Shown: piece by piece, positions 608 to 61,899 of the stretch
Position numbering within the stretch: the first letter of the stretch is position 1
How the letters are laid out: each line of letters starts with the position of its first letter
Assembly (NCBI GenBank): GCA_963920765.1
Contig: OY987244.1
Coordinates: 4,280,501-4,344,500, forward strand
Source: Ulota crispa
Taxonomy: Eukaryota > Streptophyta > Bryopsida > Orthotrichales > Orthotrichaceae
Direction: 5' to 3'
Length of the DNA stretch: 64,000 bases
Program-made: the position numbers and the translations under genes
Notes under the pieces: generated by a model
What the model was told of the DNA's origin: nothing
The model's input: the letters and a program-made list of their open reading frames with translations, nothing else
Database searches by the model: none

Positions 608-1552
608 TTAACCCCTAAAGGACCATTGTCCCTTTGGAGGACAAGTTGGACTTTGGGCATGTACCTATGGCTAATCTACTTTGTGTGATTTTCTGAAACT
701 TTCATTGAAAGTGGGGAATTCAAAGGTCTATGTGGACATCTAATTTTTTCTTCATTTTGACATTTGATGAAGAAGTTATGCATGAACTTGAGAAATTTTG
801 GGGAGGATTGCCCATTTGGACAGCCCAAAAACTTCTTTAAAAATTACATTTTTCTCAAATTAAAATTTGAAATTGGTTCTTTAGATTTTTTTTTTAATAC
901 ATGAGAAGCTTTGAATCACTCAATTTCAATCAATGAGATGAAAGATATGAGGAGTTTTTGTTTGTGGGCAATTATGGAATCTCTACTCTAAAATAAACTT
1001 TGAAGTCCTTTGTTTTACTCAATTTTCAATATTTTGGAAAAAAAAATTAAATTAAAGGAAGTAGATTGTTCATCACAACATCATCACCATTGGGATTTGC
1101 AATTTTCATTTCAATAATTAAATTCTTAACAATTTAGTGTTTTGACTCATTCTCTACTTCTTTTTACTTACTATTTTTTCCCATGTGTTGTACAATTTTA
1201 ATTGATTTAAAAATTCTCCCACACATACCTAACTTGATCTCCTACATGGAAAAAATAAAGTGCAACTTTGGGTAGAGCAATTTTTTGTTATAAGAGTGGT
1301 CAAAGGCTTTTGAAATTTTTGGGCAACATGGAAAAGAACTTTTTTGTTCACTTTAGATGTAAATATCTCACTCCTCTCCATTTGGAATGAGCTGGTTTTT
1401 TCCCACAAGTATCTCTTCTAGTATAGGGCAAGATCATACGGTTGAATTTCCCAAAAACAAAACATCAAATCCCTTTATACTAAACCTCCTAGAAGTGGCA
1501 GTTTTTAGTGATTTTCAGAAAAAAAAAAAGGGCTTGGTCCTTGAGGGGTTAA
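608..1552 (+). mobile_element. TTAA-flanked non-autonomous DNA transposon, copy A (945 bp)
   Basis: The element starts TTAA-CCCCTAAAGGACCA and ends with the imperfect inverted copy TTGGTCCTTGAGGGG-TTAA. The flanking TTAA fits a TTAA target-site duplication, the hallmark of piggyBac-type transposons, whose ends also begin CCC. The first ~350 bp and the last ~300 bp are shared with the copies at 3113, 6616, 21041 and 22028. It has no long reading frame, so it must have relied on a transposase made elsewhere. A small palindrome (GTCCC...GGGAC) lies just inside the left terminus. The superfamily is inferred from ends and target site only. Confidence 0.8.
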
Positions 1553-3112: not shown

Positions 3113-4078
3113 TTAACCCCTAAAGAACCAAGCCCATTTTTTTTGAAAATCACTGAAAATTGCCACTTTTGGGAGAATGAGTAGAATAGTAGGAAAAAAG
3201 TTTTTTAGAAAATTCAACTAGAAGGTCTTGTCGTAGACTATGGGGTACTAGTGGGAAATTTTTTAACTCATTCTAGAAGTAGAAGAGTGAGATATTGACA
3301 TTTGAAGTGAAAAAAAAGTTTTTTCCCTACTGCCCAAAAATTTCAAAAGCCTTTGACGGCTCTTATATAAAGAAAATTGCTCTACGCAAAGTTGAGGTTT
3401 ACTTTTTCCAAGTAAAAGACCAAGTTAGGTAATTGTGGGAGAATTTTCAAATGAATTGGAGGTGTGAAAAATACTTTGTAAAATCCTACAATGCTGTAAG
3501 GTTATGAAATTTGCATATACACTAGGCAAAACTAGAGAATTTATGTAAAATTGAGAAATATGAATTACTTTGATCCAAATGGTAAAAACTAAAGAATCTT
3601 AGTCTATTACAAATTGGAAAAAAAGGTTCAAAAATATATATAAACAAAGAGCTCAAAAAAGTAAAGCAACAAATTTTACAAGGGGCAAAAAGAATGGAGG
3701 TTTAGGAGTTCCATACCTACTTGCAAAATAAAACTTCTCACAACCTTCATCTCATCAATGAAATTGAATGATTCATAGCTTCCCATGTATATATAAATCT
3801 AAAGAACCAATTTTAGAATTTAATTTTAGAAAAATGCAATTCTGATTTTTTTTGGGCTGCCTGCCCTCCACTTTTTCAAAAATTCATGCATAATTTCTTC
3901 AATATATGTTGGAATGAAGAAAAAATTAGAGACCCACATAAATTTTTGAATTCCACACCTTCAACAAAAGTTTCAAAAAATCACAAAAAGTAGATTAATT
4001 GTAGCTACATGCCCAAAATCCATTTGTCCTCTGAAATCCATTTGTCCCATAGGGGACAGTTGGTCCTCGAGGGGTTAA
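3113..4078 (-). mobile_element. TTAA-flanked non-autonomous DNA transposon, copy B (966 bp)
   Basis: Reverse-orientation copy of the element at 608. It begins TTAACCCCTAAAGAACCAAG, the reverse complement of copy A's right end, and ends GGTCCTCGAGGGGTTAA. Interior blocks match copy A in reverse order (the 'atctcactcctct' segment, then the 'gatgaaagttatgaggag' segment). No coding capacity. Confidence 0.8.
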
Positions 4079-6615: not shown

Positions 6616-7545
6616 TTAACCCCTAAAGGACCATTGTCCCTTTGGGGGACAAATGGGATTTTGGGCAGGTACCTACGGCTTCAATTTTTGTCTTAATTTT
6701 TTAAAACTTTTTTTGAAGATAGAAAATCATATTAGCTTTTGGGGAATATAATTTTTATTCCAATTGATGCCAGGGAGCAAAAGTTATGCCCAAATAAGCA
6801 CAAATTTGGGGACTAGGGGCAGCAAAAAAAATTCTTATAAAACTTGAAAAAAAAATTTAATTTTTTTTTCTTATAGATTGTATCTTTGTCTACATCTGGA
6901 GCTTTGATTCATTCCATTTGGACTAATTATGAGAAAGTTATGGACAATCTTGTTTTTTGGGCAAGTCAAGCATCTTCTTGAAAAAACAACTTGTAAACTT
7001 CATTCTTGAATTTTAGGTCTAACATTTTTTCAAAAAAAACTGTTGGAGAGGGTGAAGTTTGCTTTCTACAACAATACCACCATTGGGACTATTGCATTTC
7101 AATTCTAGTCCAGGTTTGTTAACAATTTAAGTTTTTGTTCAATCTCATACCTTCTTCTACCTAATGTTTTTTTAAAGAATGAAAATTAAGTTTTTCTTTT
7201 AGAAAAAATTTCCCAAGATTCCCAACTCAACTTCCCACCATGCAAAAATAGAATTCCAAACTCTGTGGTGCAAAAATTTTAAGTTAAAAATGTTCAAAAA
7301 TAAAAAAATCTAATCAAGCAAGGCGCAAAAATAGTTCTTTTTTACACTTTAAAAGCACATATCTTCCAATTTGTGTGGTTAAAGTTATTGAGTTTTGTAC
7401 GACACATTCTTATAGTAGTCTAGTACAAGATCCTATGGTTAGATATGGAAAATGCTTGATTTTCAAACTTTTTTACTCTTTGCCATAGAGGTGGCAGTTT
7501 TGAGTGTCTTTGACAGAATAAAGGCCATGATCCTTTAGGGGTTAA
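6616..7545 (+). mobile_element. TTAA-flanked non-autonomous DNA transposon, copy C (930 bp)
   Basis: Begins TTAACCCCTAAAGGACCATT and ends GATCCTTTAGGGGTTAA, so the two ends are near-perfect inverted repeats bordered by TTAA. The interior follows the layout of copy A but is the most diverged copy here. No coding capacity. Confidence 0.8.
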
Positions 7546-11999: not shown

Positions 12000-14900
12000 A
12001 TGTGGGGGCCGGTATGTATCAAAAGTACCGATGCTTTTGGTATTCTGGGAGAGGGGCCTCGGTTTTGTTTGAGCTCTGTGATGATTTTGGTGTATGCCAG
12101 TCTTGCTGCCGTTGATCTCGTCATCGCCATTGTGGCTGGAATTCAGGTGAGCCGTTGATGTGAATCTGGCGATCATAATGGCACTCAAATGTTCAGCTGC
12201 AGTGTTTTCTTTGGCTTGCACTTTATTTGTAAGTTTTTGTGTTTCACTAATGGTGGAATTTTTGCTGCTTCTGTGCAGTTGTTGAGACATTACTTGCACA
12301 ACAAGCGTATTGGTTGGACTCGTCAAAAGGTAAAAGCTTTACCAAGTGCCCCACTTTTGATTTTTTAAGTATCAAGCGTAAATTTAATTTGTTGCAATTA
12401 TAATACCTTATGAAATGGTTGATATAAGAAGTAGGTAACCCACCTCAAAGACGTAGTGTGGAAAAAAGTGCGACCTTCGATGTTATTAACATGTCATATA
12501 TTAGTTATGTAAGAAAGGGTTAGCACAAATTGTAAGCAACAAAGTAAGTTACACACCTTGATTGGTACATTAAATCATTTTGTATCTGTTTTATCTTTTT
12601 TTGTTCAACTTAATACTAGTTCAAGTAAAAATGAATAAGAATGACAAGGTGGTTCTAAGTTTTACTGCACAAGTTTTTAATCTCTAATTTTTAACTTTCT
12701 CACTTTCAGGTCTTCCATTGCCTTATCGGAGCTTCAAACGTTGGTAGGTCTCATGTTACTTTTATCCTAAAGAGTTAGGTCTTTTTGCGAGGTTTTGAAA
12801 ATGTTTGTACTTGGCAAGTGTATAACAACGTGGTTGGTTATTTACCTAGAAATGTGTATTCTCATAAATTTATTTAGTGTTTTTGTTATTTTGGATAAGA
12901 GGAAAGGTGTGGTGTAGCAACTTATTTTGGATTCATTTGTGAGATACTTTTTTATCAGAAAGAACCTTACCTCTTTTGTTATGTTTAGCAAGTTATTTTA
13001 GTTAATCATTTAAATCCTTTCTTGTTTAGAAACTAATCTATATTGGTGGGGTTTTTTGCTTGGAAAACAGGTTACGTATTGTATTTCGTCCTCACCATAG
13101 TAGCGGCATGTAAAGGATGGACATGTTTCTTAAGTGCTTGCGGATTCATTTTAATTGGTATGCACCCCCCTTTAACACTCTCCATTTGCATCACCATAAA
13201 CTTTTTACTAAATTTGAAGGAAGTTTTAAAAACGTATTAATAAAAAGAAGGAATCATGTCCCACATTGTTGTAAGACAAACATCCAAACTAGAATTTTTA
13301 TATTTGTTTTAGGAAGTAGATTTTCTATATCTTATATGGGCACTTAGAGATGACATTGCCATGTGAATATTGTCATTGTGGATCAAATTTCTAATGAGAG
13401 TAGTGTCACAGAAAGTATTTACATCTGTAGCATTTCACTTACTCTCAGTACTAGAGAAATATAACTGTGTTCACAATTATTGGAAGTTTCTAGATTGTTT
13501 GACGTGGCGAGTGCCTGTTGGTCAGGAAACAGACTCCTATGTCCGTGGAAACTGACTCCTATGACTGTGGGTTTGCAGCGGCACCGCAAACTTTGTTCTT
13601 AGCCACATTTTTGCTACTTCTTTCCTTCTGGTGAGCTTTCCGTCTCCGTCTCTGTCTTAGGGTTTGAACCAGGGTTTTTTTTTGGGCAATTAAATGTCCA
13701 ATTGCCTCAAAAAAAGAACCCTGGCTTCAAGCCCAAAAAGGGGGAAAAATACAAGAAATGCCAAATTGCAGTAATGTAAACTGCATTGCAGCCTAAGATT
13801 TCATAAAATTCTTATCAAATTGAAAAATTGAATGCCATCATTTCAAAATTATTTGAGGTGTCGACTAATCCAATTTCATGCAATAATTAAGTAATGCCAA
13901 TGGTTGTTCGGATATTTTCAAATAAAGACTAATGGAAGATTTTTCCCTACAAAAAAAATCCCATGTTGCTACAAAAATCCATGCATAAGGTAGGAGGCTC
14001 TAATTCGGAGCAGGCTCTAAAATGGAGCACCTCCTCAAATGTACTCTTTTTGTACATGTTGTGTTTTTATAGCTTTTCAACAATGTACGTGAGTTGTACA
14101 TTTGAGGAGGTGCTCCATTCTTGAGCCCTCTGGCCTTTCCACTTCAAAAATTCATAACTAATTCCACAAAGTTTCAAAAAATATGAAACAACTTGGGTTA
14201 GATGCCAATTCTTCTTGCCTTTCAAAGAAAATCTACTGAAAAATATTTCAAGAAGTTTCATCTACCCAGAAATCAGTTTCAGCCCTTAGATGTTCCATTT
14301 CTGAGCCTCCTACCTTAGGGCCACCTTCAACTCCAACTAAAATGGGGATGGAAACCCCAATCTACAAACCATTTTCAAAAAATGCCACATAGCTAGCCAT
14401 TGGTCAGAAAACCAAAAAAAAGACCCTGCTTTGAACTATCTTTATCCAACCTTGCAATCGAACTTTGTCCTTTTTCCTTTATTCTTTTTGTAGTAAATAC
14501 GTTTGCATTGTTTGTAGGGTGGATTTATGCAACCAGGCTAATGACAATGAAGAAGATGATGACGAAGATGTGGATCCTGAGTACAATCAGTTGCCGTCTT
14601 CATCTCCAAATCACCGGGAGTCCTCCGGAGCTAGCAAGCCTCATCGAGCGTGTTTACCGGGGTGTTTACCGTGTCGACGGTGGCGTGTTCGAGGACGACA
14701 GAGATGTGTGATTGTGGTAAGTTGCAAAAAATCCTGAAAAAATGACAAAAATCTGATATGTGATTATTCTTTAGACCATGGTAGGGTTTAAAGAAATTAT
14801 TCCCTCTGTCCCTCTAAAAAGCTCCAAATCACACACATCTCTTGTACCACTAAAAAGCTCCCTTTTGCTGATTTCAATTGCTGAGAAAGCATTTGTGTTC

Positions 14901-17828
14901 AATGGTCTCATGGGGGGCAAGTTAAGCGATTAGAGAGCATTCGTTCCTCTCCTAGCAAGCTTGGCCTTGCCCATATGAGGTACCATTGTTGCTACTAATC
15001 TTTAAACCATCAATAATAAGGAGCTGGTAGCATGCACAAAGATGGTACTTTTTGCATGGAATTTGGGTGCCCAAACGGCGACATCAAAGCTGGGGATTTT
15101 GCATACTTTTGGTAGATGTAATATTGATTATAGAATGCATGTGTCATTAGCACAAAAACTAAAATAATGATGAGCTGGCAGCATTCACAAACTATGCCCC
15201 AGTATGGTACTTTTTGCATGGAATTTGGGTGCCTAAACGGCGACATCAAAGCTGGAGATTCTGCATACATTTGGTAGATGGTATATTGATTTCTAGAATG
15301 CATGTGTCACTAGCACAACGACTAAAAACAGAGTTAATCCTTCACAAGGAAGCTTTTTGGACGTTTTTAGAGGGACAGAGGGAGTACATCGTATTTTACT
15401 TCTAATGTAGATGTGTTTTACTTTGCTGCCAGGCGGTTTTGGTGATCTTCTTGTTCACGGTGGCGTTTGCTGTGTTGATTTGGTATGGAATGTACGACAA
15501 TCCAATCGATTCAGTGAAACTTGCGCAGGTGAGCTTTTGTTCTGACGTACATGGTGTAGAGCTTTGGTATAGTTGTTTTTGGTGCAAACTGTTATTGAGT
15601 TAGGGATTTTTTCGGAAGGTAAATCAAATATTGACTTCTTTCTGTTTTTAAATTTGTTGTCTGTTTCTTTTGAAAATGCTTTTCCTTTAAGGTTACTAAT
15701 ATCAACACAATGAAAGAGCTTTTTGTATTTCTATTTTCTTCTGTTTGAAAAATATCATACTCCTTCTTGAATGTTCTAAGTATAAGTGAAGAAGTTTATG
15801 TAAATTATAGTTTGTGCTACATTGAGTAGGCTATAGAGTATTGTATTAATTGTAGAAAGCATGTATCGTACGGAGTGAGTAGCTAACCTTTGTTTCCTGC
15901 ATGTAGTATTGGTACTTCCTGCGTAATATGAGCTCAAAGATTGTGCACAAAAAGAATGTGAATCCTTGTTCCAAGGGCTTTGAGGCAAATCCTGTAGAAT
16001 GTTACGTATAGTGATGAAATCAATCGTGTGTATTGTTGCTAATAATTTAACTACAAATTCATCAACTCAATGAAAATATGAGTGTCTCGAGAGTATGTGA
16101 CCTTACAGGGTGTTCTTAATTTCTCTCTTTTTTTTTGTCTTTTTTTTTGCCCCTTTTTTTTTTCCTTTTAAATCACGGTGTGTGTCCAATTCAGGTTACG
16201 TATAGAGATTATAGTCTGTACTGTTTGGGAAAATCTACTCCAATGAATTTCTAGTTCCTGAAAGGTTTTTTGAATGTTGACATTGTTCGTGACTCGCAGG
16301 TATACGCCAACTTTTTTGCTCTCGTGATACTGCTCTCAGGAGGTGGTTTGGCAGGATATGGTGAGTTTATCAATTCAGTAGTGTTGAACGCTGAGCTTGC
16401 ATAATACAACACAACATACGCTCTGATACCATATTGGAACACATTATAACAAATGTATTGAATCAAGATTGGAACTCACCTCAGAGGAGGGATATTCTAT
16501 TATTAGCTCAAAATTACCTCCTTCATCAACTAAACTGATAGCATAATACTGTTGCATACCTTAGAATATTAGGGAATCTCTACGGTTATTGTTCACCTAC
16601 AAATGGCTTAAGCCTTTGGAGTTATAACTCAAGTGAGCTTGAAACCTTGTCTTGGCAAATGTGATCTGCATGTTACCGTTCTCTAACATATATAAAGCCA
16701 ACCTTTTGCAGGCTTGCTATTGTATACCAAAATGAGCAGGGTAAAGTCCGGAAGAGCTTCAGCAGACGTTAGAAAGGTGATTCTCATATCTAAGAACTTA
16801 AGCATTCTTCCATTAATGAGATTTAGATTCTAGGAAACATTTGATTATTGTAACATCTCACTTTTCATTCATGGGCTTTCAGGTGGCGGGTTTGGCCGTT
16901 GCGTCCGTCGTGTGCTTTTCTCTCAAAGCTTTTCTGGTTGTTATGAGCGATCTCTCTGTAAGTGCCTTTCAGCTAAAGCATAGTGCTCTAATTCTGAATT
17001 TATACCTAATTCTGGCAAAAGTACTCCTGGAACACATTTTTGAACAAAACGTATGCCCTCAATATATGCACAAACTCTTGAGTGAACAATTGGAAATGTG
17101 TTTACAACGAGCTTTAAATTTAATTCCTTAAATGTAGTTCTGCCATACACCTGGCCGAATTAGGTTAGATAATTCGGATTTATGCCGTACTTTATGTTTT
17201 TCTTGATGCAAGTGGTGCCGTGCTTGTCTATTTCAAAATGGTGCATAATTCAGTTACTTGTTTCTCCTGTTCAGGATTTAATATCAGCTTTTGTTGTGTT
17301 GCAGGGACTCAACATATGGCATGTGAAACGTGGAGACAGTCAGTTCTGTGCACCCATCATTTTCTTATACTATCTCATAGGTAAGACCATTTTATGTAAC
17401 GCCACGGTATCTTTTCCTTTTGCTTGTTTTCGAGGTTAGACCATTAGCTTCTAAACTGGATTTGTAACGTTTTATATTGGGTTTTATGTCACAGGGTAGG
17501 AAGTTTGTTACGAAACACTACGCATATTTTTTGATAGCTTTGATATGTTTGCTTGAAGTTAACATTTGCTGCACATTTTTAGGGACTAATTGGTTTTGCT
17601 CATGCAGGAGAATCGGTGCCCTCTATTGTTGTACTGTGGGTGATGAGGGATCTGCCTCCAAGATCTTGTGATAGCAGTATGAATGGTCGTTTGTCATCTC
17701 ACGAAGTGTTGATTGAAGATGCACTGCTGCCAGATCCCAACTATCTGTCACAATTACTGTCCACGGCAGCTGGCCGACGACATCTGCTGCTGCCAGACTG
17801 CTGCAATAGTGATGTCTCTCCTCCTTGA
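12000..17828 (+). CDS. THH1/TOM1/TOM3-family seven-span membrane protein
   Basis: Twelve coding exons, all GT-AG: 12000-12146, 12279-12329, 12710-12743, 13071-13157, 13579-13630, 14518-14716, 15433-15528, 16300-16360, 16712-16776, 16883-16957, 17305-17380, 17608-17828. They join in frame to 387 residues. The start follows a leader exon (from 11944) and opens MWGPVCIKST. Seven hydrophobic spans are visible at about 26-48, 67-93, 97-123, 187-208, 223-247, 265-287 and 303-325. Family signatures include WVDLCNQAND, VKSGRAS and PSIVVLWVMRDLPP. Arabidopsis TOM1 and TOM3 are host membrane proteins exploited by tobamoviruses; the normal role of the family is poorly defined. This member is longer than the ~290-residue TOM1, because the loop between spans 3 and 4 has an acidic run (133-145) and three close cysteines (169, 173, 176). 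It is nearer the longer TOM1-like plant proteins than TOM1 itself. Confidence 0.93.
13661..13735. repeat. intronic hairpin
   Basis: In intron 5 of the membrane-protein gene, CAGGGTTTTTTTTTGGGCAA pairs with TTGCCTCAAAAAAAGAACCC downstream around a short AT-rich loop. Probably a miniature inverted-repeat relic; nothing shows a function. Confidence 0.5.
13986..14317. mobile_element. MITE of the TAAGGTAG family in intron 5
   Basis: Termini are perfect 15 bp inverted repeats, TAAGGTAGGAGGCTC and GAGCCTCCTACCTTA, with TA at both edges. A second inverted pair inside (GAGCACCTCCTCAAATGTAC and GTACATTTGAGGAGGTGCTC, about 14022-14115) makes part of it a hairpin. The interior differs from the copies at 9796 and 37261, so only the ends are shared. 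Confidence 0.75.
14800..15384. mobile_element. Stowaway-type MITE in intron 6, with internal tandem duplication
   Basis: Ends TTCCCTCTGTCCCTCTAAAA and TTTTAGAGGGACAGAGGGAG are the Stowaway (Tc1/mariner) terminal motif, bordered by TA on each side. Inside, a segment of about 160 bp is present twice (about 15004-15160 and 15168-15325), sharing TTTTTGCATGGAATTTGGGT and ACGGCGACATCAAAGCTGG. The duplication makes this copy longer than most Stowaway elements. Confidence 0.8.
16412..16688 (-). mobile_element. truncated LTR with primer-binding site in intron 8
   Basis: Read on the minus strand, a putative LTR runs from TGTTAGAG (16688) to GTGTTCCA (16435), followed three bases later by TGGTATCAGAGC (16431-16420), the usual primer-binding site for initiator-methionine tRNA in Copia-type plant retrotransposons. 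Little internal sequence follows and no second LTR is present. It fills most of the 351 bp intron between exons 8 and 9. The primer site is clear; the LTR limits are inferred. Confidence 0.5.
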
Positions 17829-19243: not shown

Positions 19244-20244
19244 TTAACCCCTAAATGCCCAAGGCCTTTCTGAACTTCCTAGCATTTTCATGAAAGTGAA
19301 CAATCAACCAACCTTTTCATAAATTTTATCATTTGTTTTGAATGTAATTGTACACATTAAACCCCTAAACGTCAGCACGGACGAAAAATGTCTGTTGCCT
19401 CCAAAAAAAACTCTATATCCCAAAAAAAGAACGATTTTGGTCTGATTTTTTTTAGAAGTGATCATAAAAGCGTAGTGCATCATGGAAGGCAAAACATTTC
19501 CTCTTGAGATACATTCATTTTATTTTGTAACTCAAATTGTGATACATGGTGTTAGCTCTTGAGTTGTCCTTCTTGCAATTTTCATGAGGGCACCATGCAC
19601 TGTTGACTTTTCCAACTTTTTGAAACAATACTATTGGTGCCCATGTGCAAAACACTATAGAATGCTATAGGCAGGGCAAGCCACAATGTCCATCCGTCCT
19701 TTAAGGGTTAAACTGAACATGTTAGAGATCATATGGGAAAAGAAAACACAACAATATCACTTATACCTTGAAAGATTATAATGTTTGAACTTAAGGGTGT
19801 TAAAATTGCAAAAGTGACTTGAAGTTTTTCAATCCTCATTTCACATGTCAAATCTAAAAAGTTGGTTACCAAAAAATTATGAGGTTTAAGGTCATTACAT
19901 GTCTAACTTTAATCAATTTACATCTTTCAAAGTCTACCCCTCTATTTTTTTTTAAATGCATTTCTAATGTGGATTCTTCTCCAAGCTCAAGTGTATTTGA
20001 GGCTCCTTTTCAAGATTTTCCAACACTAGAAAACTCAAGATTGCAGTGGACACCCTTGTATAAAATCTTGAGTAGAAAAATCATCAACACTCATTTTAAA
20101 AATCAAATTTTTGATGTTAAAGACAAACTTCAAAAAAAACTTGTATTGAAAAAAAATCCTAACATAGTTATTTTTATAAGTTTTTATTCAATATTAAAGT
20201 TTTGCAAACACCCAATTTGGGTGCCTCGGGCATTTAGGGGTTAA
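19244..20244 (+). mobile_element. second TTAA-flanked element family (1001 bp, with nested insertion)
   Basis: Ends are TTAACCCCTAAATGCCCAAGG and CCTCGGGCATTTAGGGGTTAA, near-perfect inverted repeats with TTAA at both edges. The terminal octamer is shared with the 608 family, but the next bases and the interior differ, so this is a sister family. A frame of 121 codons at its right side is unlike any known transposase. A smaller element sits at 19357-19711. Confidence 0.75.
19357..19711. mobile_element. small TTAA-type element nested in the previous one (about 355 bp)
   Basis: Left end TTAAACCCCTAAACGTCAGC and right end CCGTCCTTTAAGGGTTAA are related inverted termini, and both carry a GGACG block a few bases in. 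It lies wholly inside the 19244 element. Boundaries are approximate because TTAA and AAC overlap ambiguously. Confidence 0.55.
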
Positions 20245-21040: not shown

Positions 21041-21996
21041 AAAAAATCTAAAGGACCAAGCCATTTTTTCAACTAAAAACACAGAAAACTGCCACTTTTG
21101 AGGAAGCAAGTACAATGGTAAGAGAAAAAGTTTTTACAAGAATTCAACTGTAAGATCTTGTAATAGACTACAAGAGGTACACATGGTAAAAAATTCAGCT
21201 CAATCTACACAAAAATGAGTGAGATATTTACATTTGAATTGCGGAAAAAAGTTTTTTTGCTGCTGCCCAGAAATTTCAGAAGCCTTTGACCACTCTCGGA
21301 TCAAAAAAATTACTCTACACAAAGTTGAGGTTTAATTTTTCCATGTAGGAGATCAAGTAAGGTATGTGTGGGAGAATTTTCAAATCAATTGGAACTATAC
21401 AACACATGGGAATAAATAGTAAGTAAAAAGAAGTAGAGAATGAGTCAAAACACTAAATTGTTAAAAATTTAATTATTAAAACAAAAAATGCAGTTCCCAA
21501 CAATTGTAATGTTGTGAAAAACAATCTACATCCTTTGGTTTTGTTTTTTTTCCAAGATAATAAAAATTGAGTAAAATAAAGGACTTCAAAGTTTATTTTA
21601 GAGTAGAGAATCCACAATAGCTTGCAAACAAAAACTCCTCATAACTTTCATCTCGTCTATCAAAATTGAATGATTCAAAGCTCCCCATGTCTATGTAAGT
21701 CTAAAGAACCTATTTCAAATTTTTATTTGAAAAAAATGAAATTTTTAAAGAAGTTTTTGGCTGCCTAGGGAGCAATATTTTCCAAATTATCATGCATAAC
21801 TTCTTCAATAAATGTTAGAATGAAGAAAAAATTACATTCCCACGTAGATCTTTGAAAAAATTACATTCTCTTGTAGATCTTTGAATTCCTCACCTTCAAT
21901 AAAAGTTTCAAAAAATCACGCAAAGTAGTTTAGCCATAGGTACATGCCCAAAATCCCATTTGTCCCTCGAAGGGACAATGGTCTTTTAGGGGTTAA
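21041..21996 (-). mobile_element. TTAA-flanked transposon, copy F (956 bp)
   Basis: Reverse-orientation copy of the 608 family. The right end is intact (GGTCTTTTAGGGGTTAA); the left end is worn (AAAAAATCTAAAGGACCAAG in place of TTAACCCCTAAAGGACC). It faces copy G across a 31 bp gap. Confidence 0.8.
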
Positions 21997-22027: not shown

Positions 22028-22985
22028 TTAACCCCTAAAGGACCAACTGTCCCCTTGAGGGACAAATGGATTTTGGGCATGTACCTATAGCTAATCTACT
22101 TTTTGTCATTTTTTGAAACTTTTACTGAAAGTGGAGAATTCAAAGATCTACGTGGGCATCTAAGTTTTTCTTCATTCCGACATTTATTGAAGAAGTTAAG
22201 CATGAATTTTTGAAAAAGAGGGAGGGCGGGCAGCCAAAGAAAAAAAATCAAAATTGCATTTTTTAAATATAAAAATCAGAAATTGGTTTTTTAGATTTAT
22301 ATATACATGGGAAGCTTTGAATCATTCAATTTTGATTCATGAGATGAAAGTTATGAGAAGTTTTAGTTTGCAAGTAGGTATGGGACTCTCAAACCTCCAT
22401 TCTTTTTGCCCCTTGTAAAATTTGTTACTTTACTTTTTTGAGCTCTTTGTGTATTTATTTTTTGACTTTTTTTTTCCCATGTTGTAGTACACTAAGATTC
22501 CTTGGATTCTACCATTTGGATCAAAGTAATTCATATTTCTCAATTTTACATAAATCCTCCAATCTTGCTTGGTGTGTATGCAAATTTCATGGCCTTACAA
22601 CATTGCAAGATTTTACAAAGTATGATTTGCACCTCCAATTCATTTGAAAATTCCCCCACATTTATCTAACTTGATCTTCTACATGGAAAAAATAAACCTC
22701 AACTTTGCGTAGAGCAATTTTTTTTGATATAGGAGCCGTTAAAGGCTTCTGAAATTTTTGGGCAGTAGGGGAAAAAACTTTTCTTTTCACTTCAAATGCC
22801 AATATCTGACTCCTCTACTTCTAGAATGAGCTGAAAATTTTCCCACTAGTACCCCATAGTCTAGGGCAAGATCTTATGGTTGAATTTCAAAAAAAAAATT
22901 TCTCCTACCTTTCCACTCATTTCTCAAAAAGTGACAATTTTCAGTAATTTTCAAAGAAAAAAGGGTTTGGTCCTTTGGAGGTTAA
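22028..22985 (+). mobile_element. TTAA-flanked transposon, copy G (958 bp)
   Basis: Forward copy: TTAACCCCTAAAGGACCAAC at the left and TTTGGTCCTTTGGAGGTTAA at the right. The sequence agrees with copy A along its whole length by eye. No coding capacity. Confidence 0.85.
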
Positions 22986-27300: not shown

Positions 27301-27514
27301 AACTGCAAGTGAAAAAATTCATGTTCATTTAAACAAAAGCGTTTATAAAAATGGTCGAACAAAATATACCATTTGTTATTTATGCGGCTCCAACTAGTAA
27401 AGAAAAGATCACAATAGCTAGTATCTTGGAGAGTATAAAGATTTTGAAGATGTCTTTTTGAAGAAAAACGTCTACATACTACCAGAGCACCGACCATATG
27501 ATTGAGTTATAGAC

Positions 27515-28114
27515 TTGGAGGAAGAAGTACAATTTTTTTTTGCTCCAATTTATAACCTATCACAAATAGAATTAGCGGAACTACAAAATTATACTAACGA
27601 GAATTTGGCTAAGAATTTCATTCGTTATTCCAAATTGCATGTTGGAACATCTATTATATTTGTGAAAAACAATGATGGCTCCTTACAAATGTGTGTGGAT
27701 TATCAAGATTTTAATAAGATGGCAGAGAAGAACCGCTATCTATTACTTTTAATATTTGGACTTTTAGATCAATTCAGAAGTGCAAAGATCTTTACCAAGA
27801 TCAACCTAAGCAGAGTTTATAATCTTGCACAAATAAAAAAAAGAATCAAATGGAAGATGACATTTCGTATAAAATATGGCCATTTTGAGTATAATATCAT
27901 GCCTTTTGGTTTTATAAATGCCCTAGCAGTCTTTCAATACATAATGAATGACATCTTTCAATGGCACCTTGATAACTTTATTGTTATCTACTTAAACAAA
28001 AATTTGGTATTTTCTAAAAATAAAGAAGATCATGCAGATCACATTTGTTTAATCTTTGAAAAATTACGCAAACGAGAACTCTACGCCAAATCAGAGAAGC
28101 GTTTATTTTACTGA
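27515..28114 (+). pseudogene. reverse transcriptase remnant, catalytic motif lost
   Basis: About 200 open codons hold recognisable RT blocks: SLQMCVDYQDFNK, FTKINLSRVYN and NIMPFGFINALAVFQ. The box that is normally Y-L-D-D reads YLNKNLVFS, so both catalytic aspartates are gone. The enzyme would be dead even where the frame is open. Confidence 0.88.
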
Positions 28115-36428: not shown

Positions 36429-36662
36429 TTAATCCCTAAAGGACATAGCTTGCCACTGTGACTAGTAGAATATGAGGTGTTTTACTTGTATTTGGACTAG
36501 ATTCACACCTTTATTGTATTTGAGATCAACAAAGAAGTCAAAGAATAGACCAAAGCGATTGTAATTAGCTATTTGAGATCCTAGATTAAAACTTCTCACT
36601 GATAGCAAATACAGATTATACGGCAACGTATGTACTATGTCCTATGGTCCTTTAAGGGTTAA
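36429..36662. mobile_element. short TTAA-flanked MITE (234 bp)
   Basis: Begins TTAATCCCTAAAGGACATAG and ends CTATGGTCCTTTAAGGGTTAA: the same kind of end as the 608 family on a much shorter body. The interior is unrelated to the long copies as far as I can see. Confidence 0.65.
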
Positions 36663-38372: not shown

Positions 38373-39964
38373 ATGCAGGTGAGCTTTCTATGGGTTTCGC
38401 TGGAAAGAGTAGATGGATGTGTTGTTGTTGTGGGTGACATGTTATTTTGGGGTGTCGTTCTAGGCTGGTGAGGTACTACTCTTTCTAATACAAATTTTTT
38501 GTACATCTGGAACAATTTTGTCTACCGTTCGGCGCTTTTCTATGTGCGAATGACCTTTGCTGAATACCGATGTGTTGGATGGTGCGAACAGGGAGGTTCA
38601 TGAATGTGTAGAGATTCGAACTCTCGTAGAGTTAAAAAAAACTATCAGAACCGTGGACTCGTCTTGTAGCTCTCAGGTCAGGTCAACAAGGGGTGCAGGT
38701 TCTCATCAACCTGCTCTTTTCCATGCAGCCAAATAGCGGCGAGCATTTGGCTCTCTTCTCACCTGGAGTGCTCGACAGCAACGGTGGCTATGGCGCATGG
38801 GGCGCCCCGAGCTTCAGCGCGCCCATTGTATTCCCTGAGGTGGACCTGAAAACATCAACATCTAGGGGAAAACGCAAGGAGCAACGAAAGGTCTGGAAGG
38901 ATGGCATGCCAATGGAGCAGTTCGACGGCATCCAGGATTACGCATCCGACTTGAACTGGACGGAGACTGGCGAGGTTTGGAAGGATCATCATCACCAGAG
39001 CATGAAGGTGTTGGAGAATCATAATAACACTAATAATAATAATAATAATAATAATACTAGTAGCAAGGGCAAGCACAGGAAGGAGAGGGCGGAAAGCTCC
39101 GATGGGGAGCGAAGAGGCGGCGGTGGTGGTGGTAGTGCCAGGAAGCGCAAGCGCAAGGAGATCGAGACAGCGGTGCCGTGGACGGAGGAGATGGTGAAGT
39201 ATTTATTCGAGACGTACGACGACGTGCACCGCCGGCTCTACATCGAGAGCCGGGGCAAGGTGAAGAACCAGAAGAAGTGGGACCCTATCATCAAGACCAT
39301 GCAGGAGAAGTTCGGCCGCGAGTTCACCAAGAACCAGTGCGAGAGCAAGTACTGGAAGGTCCGCCGGGAGTGCACCAAGTACAAGCTCCGCCTGGAGAAG
39401 CGTGCAGCCGCCCAGCACGACTCCTCCGAGGTCTACCCCGGCAAGGCTGTTCGGGAGCTTCTGAAGCCCAAATTCTACGACGTCTGGCTCCAAGTCGCCG
39501 GGGAAAACTCCTCCCTCATGCCCGAGATCGAAGTCTCCTCCGGCTCTGAGGACGAGATGGTGCCCGACCACCCTCCCAGCAAAGCCTTTGCTGAAGACGA
39601 CATCGCTGCTGTCGAAGGACAGGCTCCAGATGACGGTGAAGCTAGCCACCACCACCACCACCATCGCCACTCCTCCAGCTGCGCCATCGTGCGAGAAATG
39701 CAGCAGCTCATCACAGTCCGGATGGAAGCCTCGGAGAAGCGCGAGGAAGCTCTCAACATCCGTGCCGAGCTCACCATGGAGCTCCTCAGGCAGCACATGG
39801 AGCGCATGGAGCGCACCGGGCTGTCTGGAGAAGACGCTCGACAGCGCCAGCTGCAGATGATCGAGGGCGTCGACAACAAACTCGACAGGCTTGTCAATGG
39901 ACTCAGCACCTTGAACAAAAACATCGGCGCCATCATCGGCAGACTCACTTCCATACAACGATAG
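38373..39964 (+). CDS. trihelix-type (Myb/SANT-like) DNA-binding protein
   Basis: Preferred model: 38373-38378 joined to 38729-39964, giving 413 residues. The leader exon ends ATGCAG before GTGAGC, and the intron ends CTCTTTTCCATGCAG, so M-Q then P-N-S-G follow. If the intron is retained, the ATG at 38723 gives the same protein. Residues 150-222 form a three-helix DNA-binding domain with spaced tryptophans W153 (VPWTEEMVKY), W186 (KKWDPIIKTM) and W211 (NQCESKYWKVRREC), the trihelix signature. Basic stretches near 115-122 and 140-145 (RKRKRK) could be nuclear signals. An asparagine run (104-111) comes from an AAT microsatellite, a histidine run lies near 309-314, and the C-terminus (322-400) is predicted coiled coil. 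It is presumably a nuclear transcription factor. The exact trihelix subclass is unclear. Confidence 0.85.
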
Positions 39965-45000: not shown

Positions 45001-45236
45001 TTAACCCCGAAAGGACCAACTATCCCCTCAAGAGACAAATGGGATTTTGGGCACATACTTACAACTAAACTACTTTGTATGATTTTTTGAAATTTTTATG
45101 GAAGATGGGAAATTCAAAGATCTAAGTAAGCATCTAATTTTTTTCTTCACTATGACATTTATTGAAGAAGTTAAAAATAAATTTATGGAAAAATGTCCAC
45201 ATGGGGCATCCCAAAAAATTCTTACAAATTGCATTA

Positions 45237-45311
<75 letters not shown>

Positions 45312-45734
45312 GGTTCTTTAGACTTATACAAAGGTGGGGAACTTTGAATCATCCAATTTTCATTAATGAGATGAAAGTTATGAGGAGTTTTTGTTTGTGG
45401 GGTAGATACGGTTTCTCTTAGAATCACACCCACCCGCAAACAAAAACTCCTCACAACTTTCATCTCATTAATGAAAATTGAATGATTCAAAGCTCCCCAT
45501 CTATATATAATTCTAAAAAACCTATTTCATATCTTCAATTATTTTTCATGCAATTTTAAAGAATTTTTTGGGCTGCCCAATTTGGATATTTTTTCAAAAA
45601 TTTGTTTTTAACTTGTTCAATAAATGTCAAAATGAAGAAAAAATTAGATGCCCACGTAGATCTTTGAATTCCCCATCTTCCATGCCCAAAATCCCATTTG
45701 TCCCCCAAAGGGAACTTGGTTCTTAAGGGGTTAA
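45001..45734. mobile_element. foldback derivative of the TTAA family with (TA)n centre (734 bp)
   Basis: Both ends carry the left part of the 608 family: TTAACCCCGAAAGGACCAAC at the left and its inverted counterpart ending TTCTTAAGGGGTTAA at the right. The arms run inward through GATGAAAGTTATGAGGAG (left) and CTCCTCACAACTTTCATCTC (right), meeting near 45425. The whole element is thus a long inverted repeat. The left arm is lengthened by a (TA)n run at 45240-45305. Confidence 0.85.
45240..45305. repeat. (TA)n microsatellite, about 33 units
   Basis: An uninterrupted TA run inside the left arm of the foldback element. Frames across it give only Ile-Tyr repeats and are not genes. Confidence 0.98.
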
Positions 45735-61337: not shown

Positions 61338-61899
61338 CAAGAGCATTGCCAATGCAGCCATAAACATGCCTAGTATAATGTACATTTTGTATTTAATTAA
61401 TAATTGATCATAGCATAAATATTAGATTATTTGAATGGCATAACTTTTTTTATCGTAAAAATACAATAAAATTTTGGTTTGGACATTGGTTGATTTAGAT
61501 ACGTGGCATCAAATGTTAGCTAGCTTCCAAAAAAATTAGATGCCTCACCAAATCAAGCCTAAAAAGGGGAAAATCAGCTAAGGGCACGGTATAATGAGGT
61601 CATTATACTGTGCCCTTGGCTGATTTTCCTCTTTTTACCTCATTATACCGTGCCCTTGGCTGATTTTCCCCTTTCTAGGATTCATTTGGTGAGGCTTCTA
61701 ATTTTTTTGGAAGCTAGCTAACATTTGATGCCACGTATCTAAATCAACCAATGTCCAAACCAAAATTTTATTGTATTTTTACTATAAGAAAAGTTATGCC
61801 ATTCAAATAATCTAATATTTATACTATGATTGATTATTAATTAAATACAAAACATACATTATACTAGGCATGTTTACGGCTGCATTGGCGATGCCTTGG
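61338..61899. mobile_element. large foldback element (about 560 bp)
   Basis: Two arms of about 260 bp are near-exact inverted copies, from GAGCATTGCCAATGCAGCC / GGCTGCATTGGCGATGCC at the outside to AAGGGCACGGTATAATGAGG / CCTCATTATACCGTGCCCTT at the centre. A third partial copy of the central segment (CATTATACTGTGCCCTTGGC) lies in the loop. The outer ends resemble the GGGCATCCCC family. It lies between copies 1 and 2 of that family. Confidence 0.9.

Follow-up and report, generated by a model that had tools for sequence, protein, structure and literature searches.

Among the described systems closest to the repeats reported here are the piggyBac element of Trichoplusia ni and piggyBat, and the ends of insect piggyBac elements begin with CCC. 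For plants, the superfamily appears in some sources and is missing from others. In the text available, a MITE survey of 207 plant genomes, including four bryophytes, covers five superfamilies and Micron, and its main text contains neither 'piggy' nor 'TTAA' (PMC12550479). Similarly, six TIR superfamilies are named in a review of land-plant elements and the word piggyBac is absent from the text available (PMC9033089). On the other side, a table for the fern Ceratopteris gives 1,230 PiggyBac-labelled copies (PMC6890710), two plant reviews include PiggyBac among the superfamilies in the passages available (PMC10004981, PMC10794571) and one abstract names plants among the sources from which piggyBac was isolated (PMC10813416). 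At the level of titles, abstracts and counts, no paper characterizing a plant piggyBac was found in the open-licence literature, and the sole match in the moss-genome literature was the word 'piggybacking'. The original prediction, that reports of the superfamily in land plants are few or lacking, is thus roughly right, given the silence of one main text (PMC12550479), but it is not absolute (PMC6890710, PMC10004981, PMC10794571). As surveys often omit piggyBac, judging from the text available (PMC12550479, PMC9033089), thousands of moss TTAA elements could go unnoticed or be classed with Harbinger or mariner MITEs.

The DNA analysed here (the window) is a stretch of 64,000 nt (C3:4280501-4344500), and the genome searched comprises 274.8 Mb in 157 contigs. 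The host is a moss, hence a land plant, since the frame at 38636-39964 of the window has relatives in the mosses Physcomitrium patens (66% over 93%), Sphagnum balticum and Ceratodon purpureus, and the LEAFY family (PF01698), which we take to be plant-specific, was matched in the genome (best 1.2e-27). With a probability of about 0.96, the repeats in the window are non-autonomous, internally deleted MITEs of the piggyBac superfamily that are resident in the moss genome. They are as follows.

608..1552, forward strand: piggyBac-type MITE of 945 bp, TTAA at both ends
3113..4078, reverse strand: piggyBac-type MITE of 966 bp, inverted, TTAA at both ends
6616..7545, forward strand: piggyBac-type MITE of 930 bp sharing mainly its ends with the other copies, TTAA at both ends
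19244..20244, forward strand: sister MITE with TTAACCCCTAAATGCCC ends, which match a transposase-bearing element in locus L020
19357..19711, no strand: nested 355-bp element in 19244-20244, TTAA at both ends
about 21041..21996, reverse strand: piggyBac-type MITE, inverted, one end degraded, without TTAA at 21041
22028..22985, forward strand: piggyBac-type MITE of 958 bp, right end TTAACCTCC
36429..36662, no strand: short 234-bp TTAA element with ends TTAATCCC / TTAACCC
45001..45734, no strand: foldback form derived from the left end of the 608/3113/22028 family, TTAA at both ends

Five copies of about 0.95 kb had been proposed. Their coordinates and sizes (0.93-0.97 kb) hold, but 6616..7545 is not a full relative and resembles the other window copies mainly at its ends (left 102-104 bp at 83-84%, right about 131 bp at 69%). 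Full-length alignment was obtained for only two window pairs, 608/21996 at 78% and 3113/22985 at 85%, the other pairs aligning in part. TTAA immediately outside CCCC(T)AAA had been ascribed to every copy listed; it is present at most ends, which read TTAACCCC(T)AAAGG or nearly so, but the 21041 copy at its left (AAAAAATCTAAAGG, with neither TTAA nor CCCC), the 22028 copy at its right and the 36429 element depart from this. The two sister elements predicted at 19244 and 19357 are both there, but the second lies inside the first, and L017 (8902-9554) holds another copy of 19244-20244 that lacks this insert. The foldback derivative aligns with its own inverse at 73% over 437 columns, and the 234-bp element has a relative in L037 (3124-3366, 70%). 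Tblastn with 26 piggyBac transposase sequences against all 64,000 nt detected no piggyBac transposase in the window. The window also contains a reverse transcriptase fragment (27506-28114; PF00078, 1.5e-14) and a 258-bp inverted repeat (61343-61894) whose arms are 95% complementary and 36 bp apart.

A profile search of the genome with the piggyBac transposase domain PF13843 (DDE_Tnp_1_7) gave at least 120 matches above the cut-off (best 1.3e-73) and none in 14 control genomes of unstated kind. Stops interrupt 110 of the 120; ten are stop-free, several of these being fragments. In a PDB sequence search, an open frame of 476 aa in L026 matched piggyBac (6x67, 4.1e-20) and piggyBat (9c0f, 5.8e-17). 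Twenty transposase loci (L017-L036) were sampled with full flanks. At the three catalytic Asp positions, D was found in 19, 15 and 18 of these loci and N in 1, 4 and 0, while 0, 1 and 2 were uncovered. A C-terminal cysteine-rich motif follows within 1.5 kb downstream in 11 of the 20 (one containing a stop; counted without a shuffled control) and is absent or decayed in nine.

As piggyBac is best known from animals and one of the named relatives that the profile search gave comes from a beetle (protein P0077, 25% to P0003), contamination or recent transfer from an animal has to be considered as the origin of these sequences. This is very unlikely, however, since the matches are spread over C1 to C11, a moss gene is also present in the window and elements are nested in one another. 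In addition, transposases of different families have just 30-40% or so of their residues in common, which points to long residence, and the closest database relatives found are unnamed proteins with up to 69% identity to the moss query. An ancient transfer from an animal is possible.

The genome harbours several related piggyBac families, each with end variants of its own, and some of these are accompanied by miniatures. Inward TTAACC ends were present in both expected zones at ten of the 20 loci; the remaining ten had no clear end pair within the stretch examined. Ends within a locus matched at 9.7 of 17, against 7.4 of 17 (SD 0.42) for ends dealt between loci (0 of 20,000 permutations), a comparison in which a wrong left end was used for L019. 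That end, at 1517, was rejected when reading the upstream stretch showed that it belongs to a nested MITE of 926 bp. Across ten loci the similarity of ends correlated with that of transposases (r 0.43, p 0.007). One element of 5.2-5.3 kb is represented twice, in L032 and L035; the two copies are 89-93% identical and their similarity stops at the TTAA ends (TTAACCCC/TTAACTCC). The element in L020, whose transposase is 48% identical to that of L019, has ends resembling those of the sister element 19244-20244 and not of the main window family; its left end is 86% identical to the right end of 19244..20244 over 37 bp.

A second TTAA MITE family, of 0.91 kb and with TTAACCCTTTA(A/G)AGACC ends, was observed in four copies that are 81-91% identical. 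This family has ends similar to those (TTAACCCTTTAGGGACC) of the element with a transposase in L021. The copies are:

L022, 917-1829
L026, 729-1637
L030, 8562-9478
L034, 413-1327

Both ends of the window family recur on three elements of 8.0-8.5 kb that contain a transposase; these are the only members of the window-family subfamily that were read to both ends.

E19, C7:11814404-11822436: 8,033 bp including nested inserts
E42, C9: 8,530 bp, transposase 55% identical to that of E19
E43, C3:27054300-27062806: 8,507 bp, transposase 56% identical to that of E19

Identity of these long elements to the window copies is 69-91%, in alignments of 52-218 bp at the left end and 57-617 bp at the right end. 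The left end of E19 is 85-87% identical to four window ends over 53-58 bp (86% over 58 bp for 6616..7545) and its right end 80-86% over 57-60 bp. For E42 the values are 72-80% over 115-218 bp (left) and 72-81% over 276-437 bp (right). The left end of E43 matches window copies at 86% over 175 and 189 bp and, for 21041..21996, at 91% over 141 bp. Its right end matches at 88% over 347 bp (also 21041..21996), 77% over 519 bp (3113..4078), 74% over 617 bp and, for 6616-7545, 69% over 226 bp. At 608..1552 the left end resembles the left ends of all three long elements, and the right 367 bp are 75% identical to E43. The site to the left of E43 reads TTCA instead of TTAA. A tandem array, each unit of which contains TTAA, adjoins this element (C3 near 27054300), and a repeat at 14797-15386 of the window is 85% identical over 593 bp to one inside E19.

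In the 22028 copy, some 795 of 958 bp can be aligned with one or other end of E43, which gives the 0.95-kb copies the look of long elements minus the middle. From sequence comparison, the window copies would thus be internally deleted, non-autonomous piggyBac elements. At only 69-91% similarity to the window copies, none of E19, E42 and E43 is their direct source. The check suggested with the original prediction, a search for a piggyBac-type transposase bounded by the same ends, succeeded: piggyBac-type (PF13843) transposases are present in the genome, and the three whose elements were read to both ends have these ends.

Kolobok and Sola3 elements also target TTAA, which by itself names no superfamily. 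One of these could in principle have mobilized the window family, with the piggyBac genes as mere bystanders. Such a reading is very unlikely, because three piggyBac elements match the window copies at both ends, over up to 617 bp.

The target preference of the piggyBac-type MITEs is apparent from the genome as a whole. The 14-mer CCCCTAAAGGACCA occurs 8,876 times and is preceded by TTAA in 7,555 cases (85%); the 18-mer TTAACCCCTAAAGGACCA occurs 7,555 times (3,781 + 3,774 by strand) and its reversed control pattern 0 times. Exceptions before the 14-mer comprise 305 VTAA and 288 TVAA, so the outer T of TTAA is fixed as firmly as the second T. Since the outer base is fixed like its neighbour, and would be free with TA or TAA, the target is a 4-bp TTAA. 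Put differently, the base outside TAA or TA is T in 7,555 of 7,860 cases, which is not the pattern of a 2-bp TA or 3-bp TTA/TAA duplication. Tourist-like (PIF/Harbinger, 3-bp TTA/TAA) or Stowaway-like (Tc1/mariner, TA) MITEs that happen to sit in TTAA, common classes of plant MITE according to the survey text available (PMC12550479), are of negligible likelihood here, given this fixation of the outer T (305 against 288 exceptions beside 7,555) and the piggyBac transposase encoded by long copies with window-family ends.

Among the first 100 listed places of the 18-mer, all within the first 3 Mb of C1, 17 pairs of neighbours faced inward at a spacing of up to 1.6 kb, and the length was 903-963 bp for 12 of these pairs. 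Randomizing the strands gave 5.0 inward pairs on average and none of 10,000 draws reached 17. Extrapolation from this one C1 region suggests some 6,300 elements with at least one exact end; the true number of elements is above this, because many of the window ends have changed.

Empty sites also bear on the target. E19 is inserted in a repeat, uninterrupted copies of which, in L020 and L029, have one TTAA at the junction, showing a TTAA target duplication for a long element. The joined flanks of 6616-7545, 19244-20244 and E42 gave no uninterrupted site in a genome search. When 26 candidate pairs were put to a local test, junction-spanning matches were obtained for four, two of them within the element's own locus. 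The pair q24 gave a junction with a single TTAA in both L020 and L029, next to a gap of 7 bases, and may combine the ends of two separate elements; relatives of q20 have no TTAA at the site. At the site of the 19357-19711 insert, L017 8902-9554 reads TTCT, which supports a single 4-bp site and not the letters TTAA. Long transposase-bearing elements have terminal inverted repeats starting with CCC beside TTAA. The assignment to the piggyBac superfamily is upheld by the PF13843 elements with the same ends together with the single TTAA at the empty site of E19.

The window family may have spread as known piggyBac elements do. By analogy with these, the transposase of a long element would have bound the shared ends in trans and cut at TTAA via hairpin ends; the excised element would have been inserted at another TTAA, leaving the donor site with a single TTAA again.

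Divergence within the two full-length window pairs is 15 and 22%, and 110 of the 120 transposase matches contain stops, so the elements look old. They look like the remains of past waves, and an active source, which the original prediction had raised, is not supported. By eye, the internal stops in the transposase rows are mostly TAG and TGA. The 3' parts of L032 and L035 differ by 110 transitions and 14 other, transversion-type changes. Both the stop types and this transition excess are as deamination of methylated cytosine would give.

In 17 of the 20 sampled loci a conserved coding segment, some 100 residues long, lies on the same strand as the transposase match and 1.3-3.7 kb upstream of it. 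The HMM was built from ten loci and recovered seven more at 8 bits or above, with weak scores for L027 and L030 (18.6 and 14.7 bits). It did not detect the segment in L019, L020 or L029, on the opposite strand, in the window or in E19, E42 and E43. In the older comparisons, changes in the segment were most frequent at third codon positions. Differences at codon positions 1, 2 and 3 numbered 26, 20 and 61 for L021/L026 (p 1e-6), 46, 34 and 70 for L034/L036 (p 0.001), 53, 46 and 71 for L022/L017 (p 0.05) and 50, 42 and 65 for L033/L025 (p 0.07). The young pair L032/L035 showed no codon-position bias in the segment (9, 6 and 7).

The branch to which the window family belongs has a different upstream segment (P0098), 34-42% identical between E19, E42 and E43. 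P0098 has 47 genome matches at 35 places. In a tally using all 113 transposase rows, 23 of the 35 places were followed within 8 kb by a same-strand transposase (random-place chance 0.0018), none had one on the opposite strand, one had a transposase upstream and the remainder had none near. Neither upstream segment had a significant match in Pfam or PDB searches. In a search of 98 proteins, the 17-locus segment was not found among the matches listed (best 2.4 bits); as these proteins were predicted singly, many of them on short contigs, the elements that encode them may still carry it. On balance we favour the view that mosses host an old, diverse piggyBac branch with an extra conserved upstream coding module, either an accessory protein or a 5' exon adding a new domain.

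With its many piggyBac families, this land plant allows a test of whether plants have held such elements by descent or acquired them by transfer. The moss population likewise opens to test the fate of TTAA elements under plant DNA methylation and the role of the upstream module. An intact relative, none of which was identified among the elements examined, could become a tool for scarless gene delivery in plants.

Among described systems, the fern Ceratopteris is also a land plant with repeats bearing the same superfamily label; it differs in that the passage available gives a repeat-label count only (122,417 bp), without transposase, ends or target (PMC6890710). The CMITEs of Acropora corals, as far as the available text describes them, are likewise MITEs tied to piggyBac-like transposons, one family being apparently element-derived (PMC2872659). 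They differ in their animal host and in the stress laid on a conserved internal region and tandem arrays (PMC2872659). The moss elements share with piggyBac of T. ni (6x67/6x68) and piggyBat (9c0f) the PF13843 catalytic domain, the aligned DDD and the TTAA target, as well as ends starting with CCC and, in 11 of the 20 loci, the cysteine-rich C-terminal motif. Unlike these, they reside in a moss, measure 5.0-8.5 kb and, in most of the loci sampled, have an extra upstream coding segment. The window family thus belongs to a known superfamily in an unusual host, and the upstream module may set it apart.
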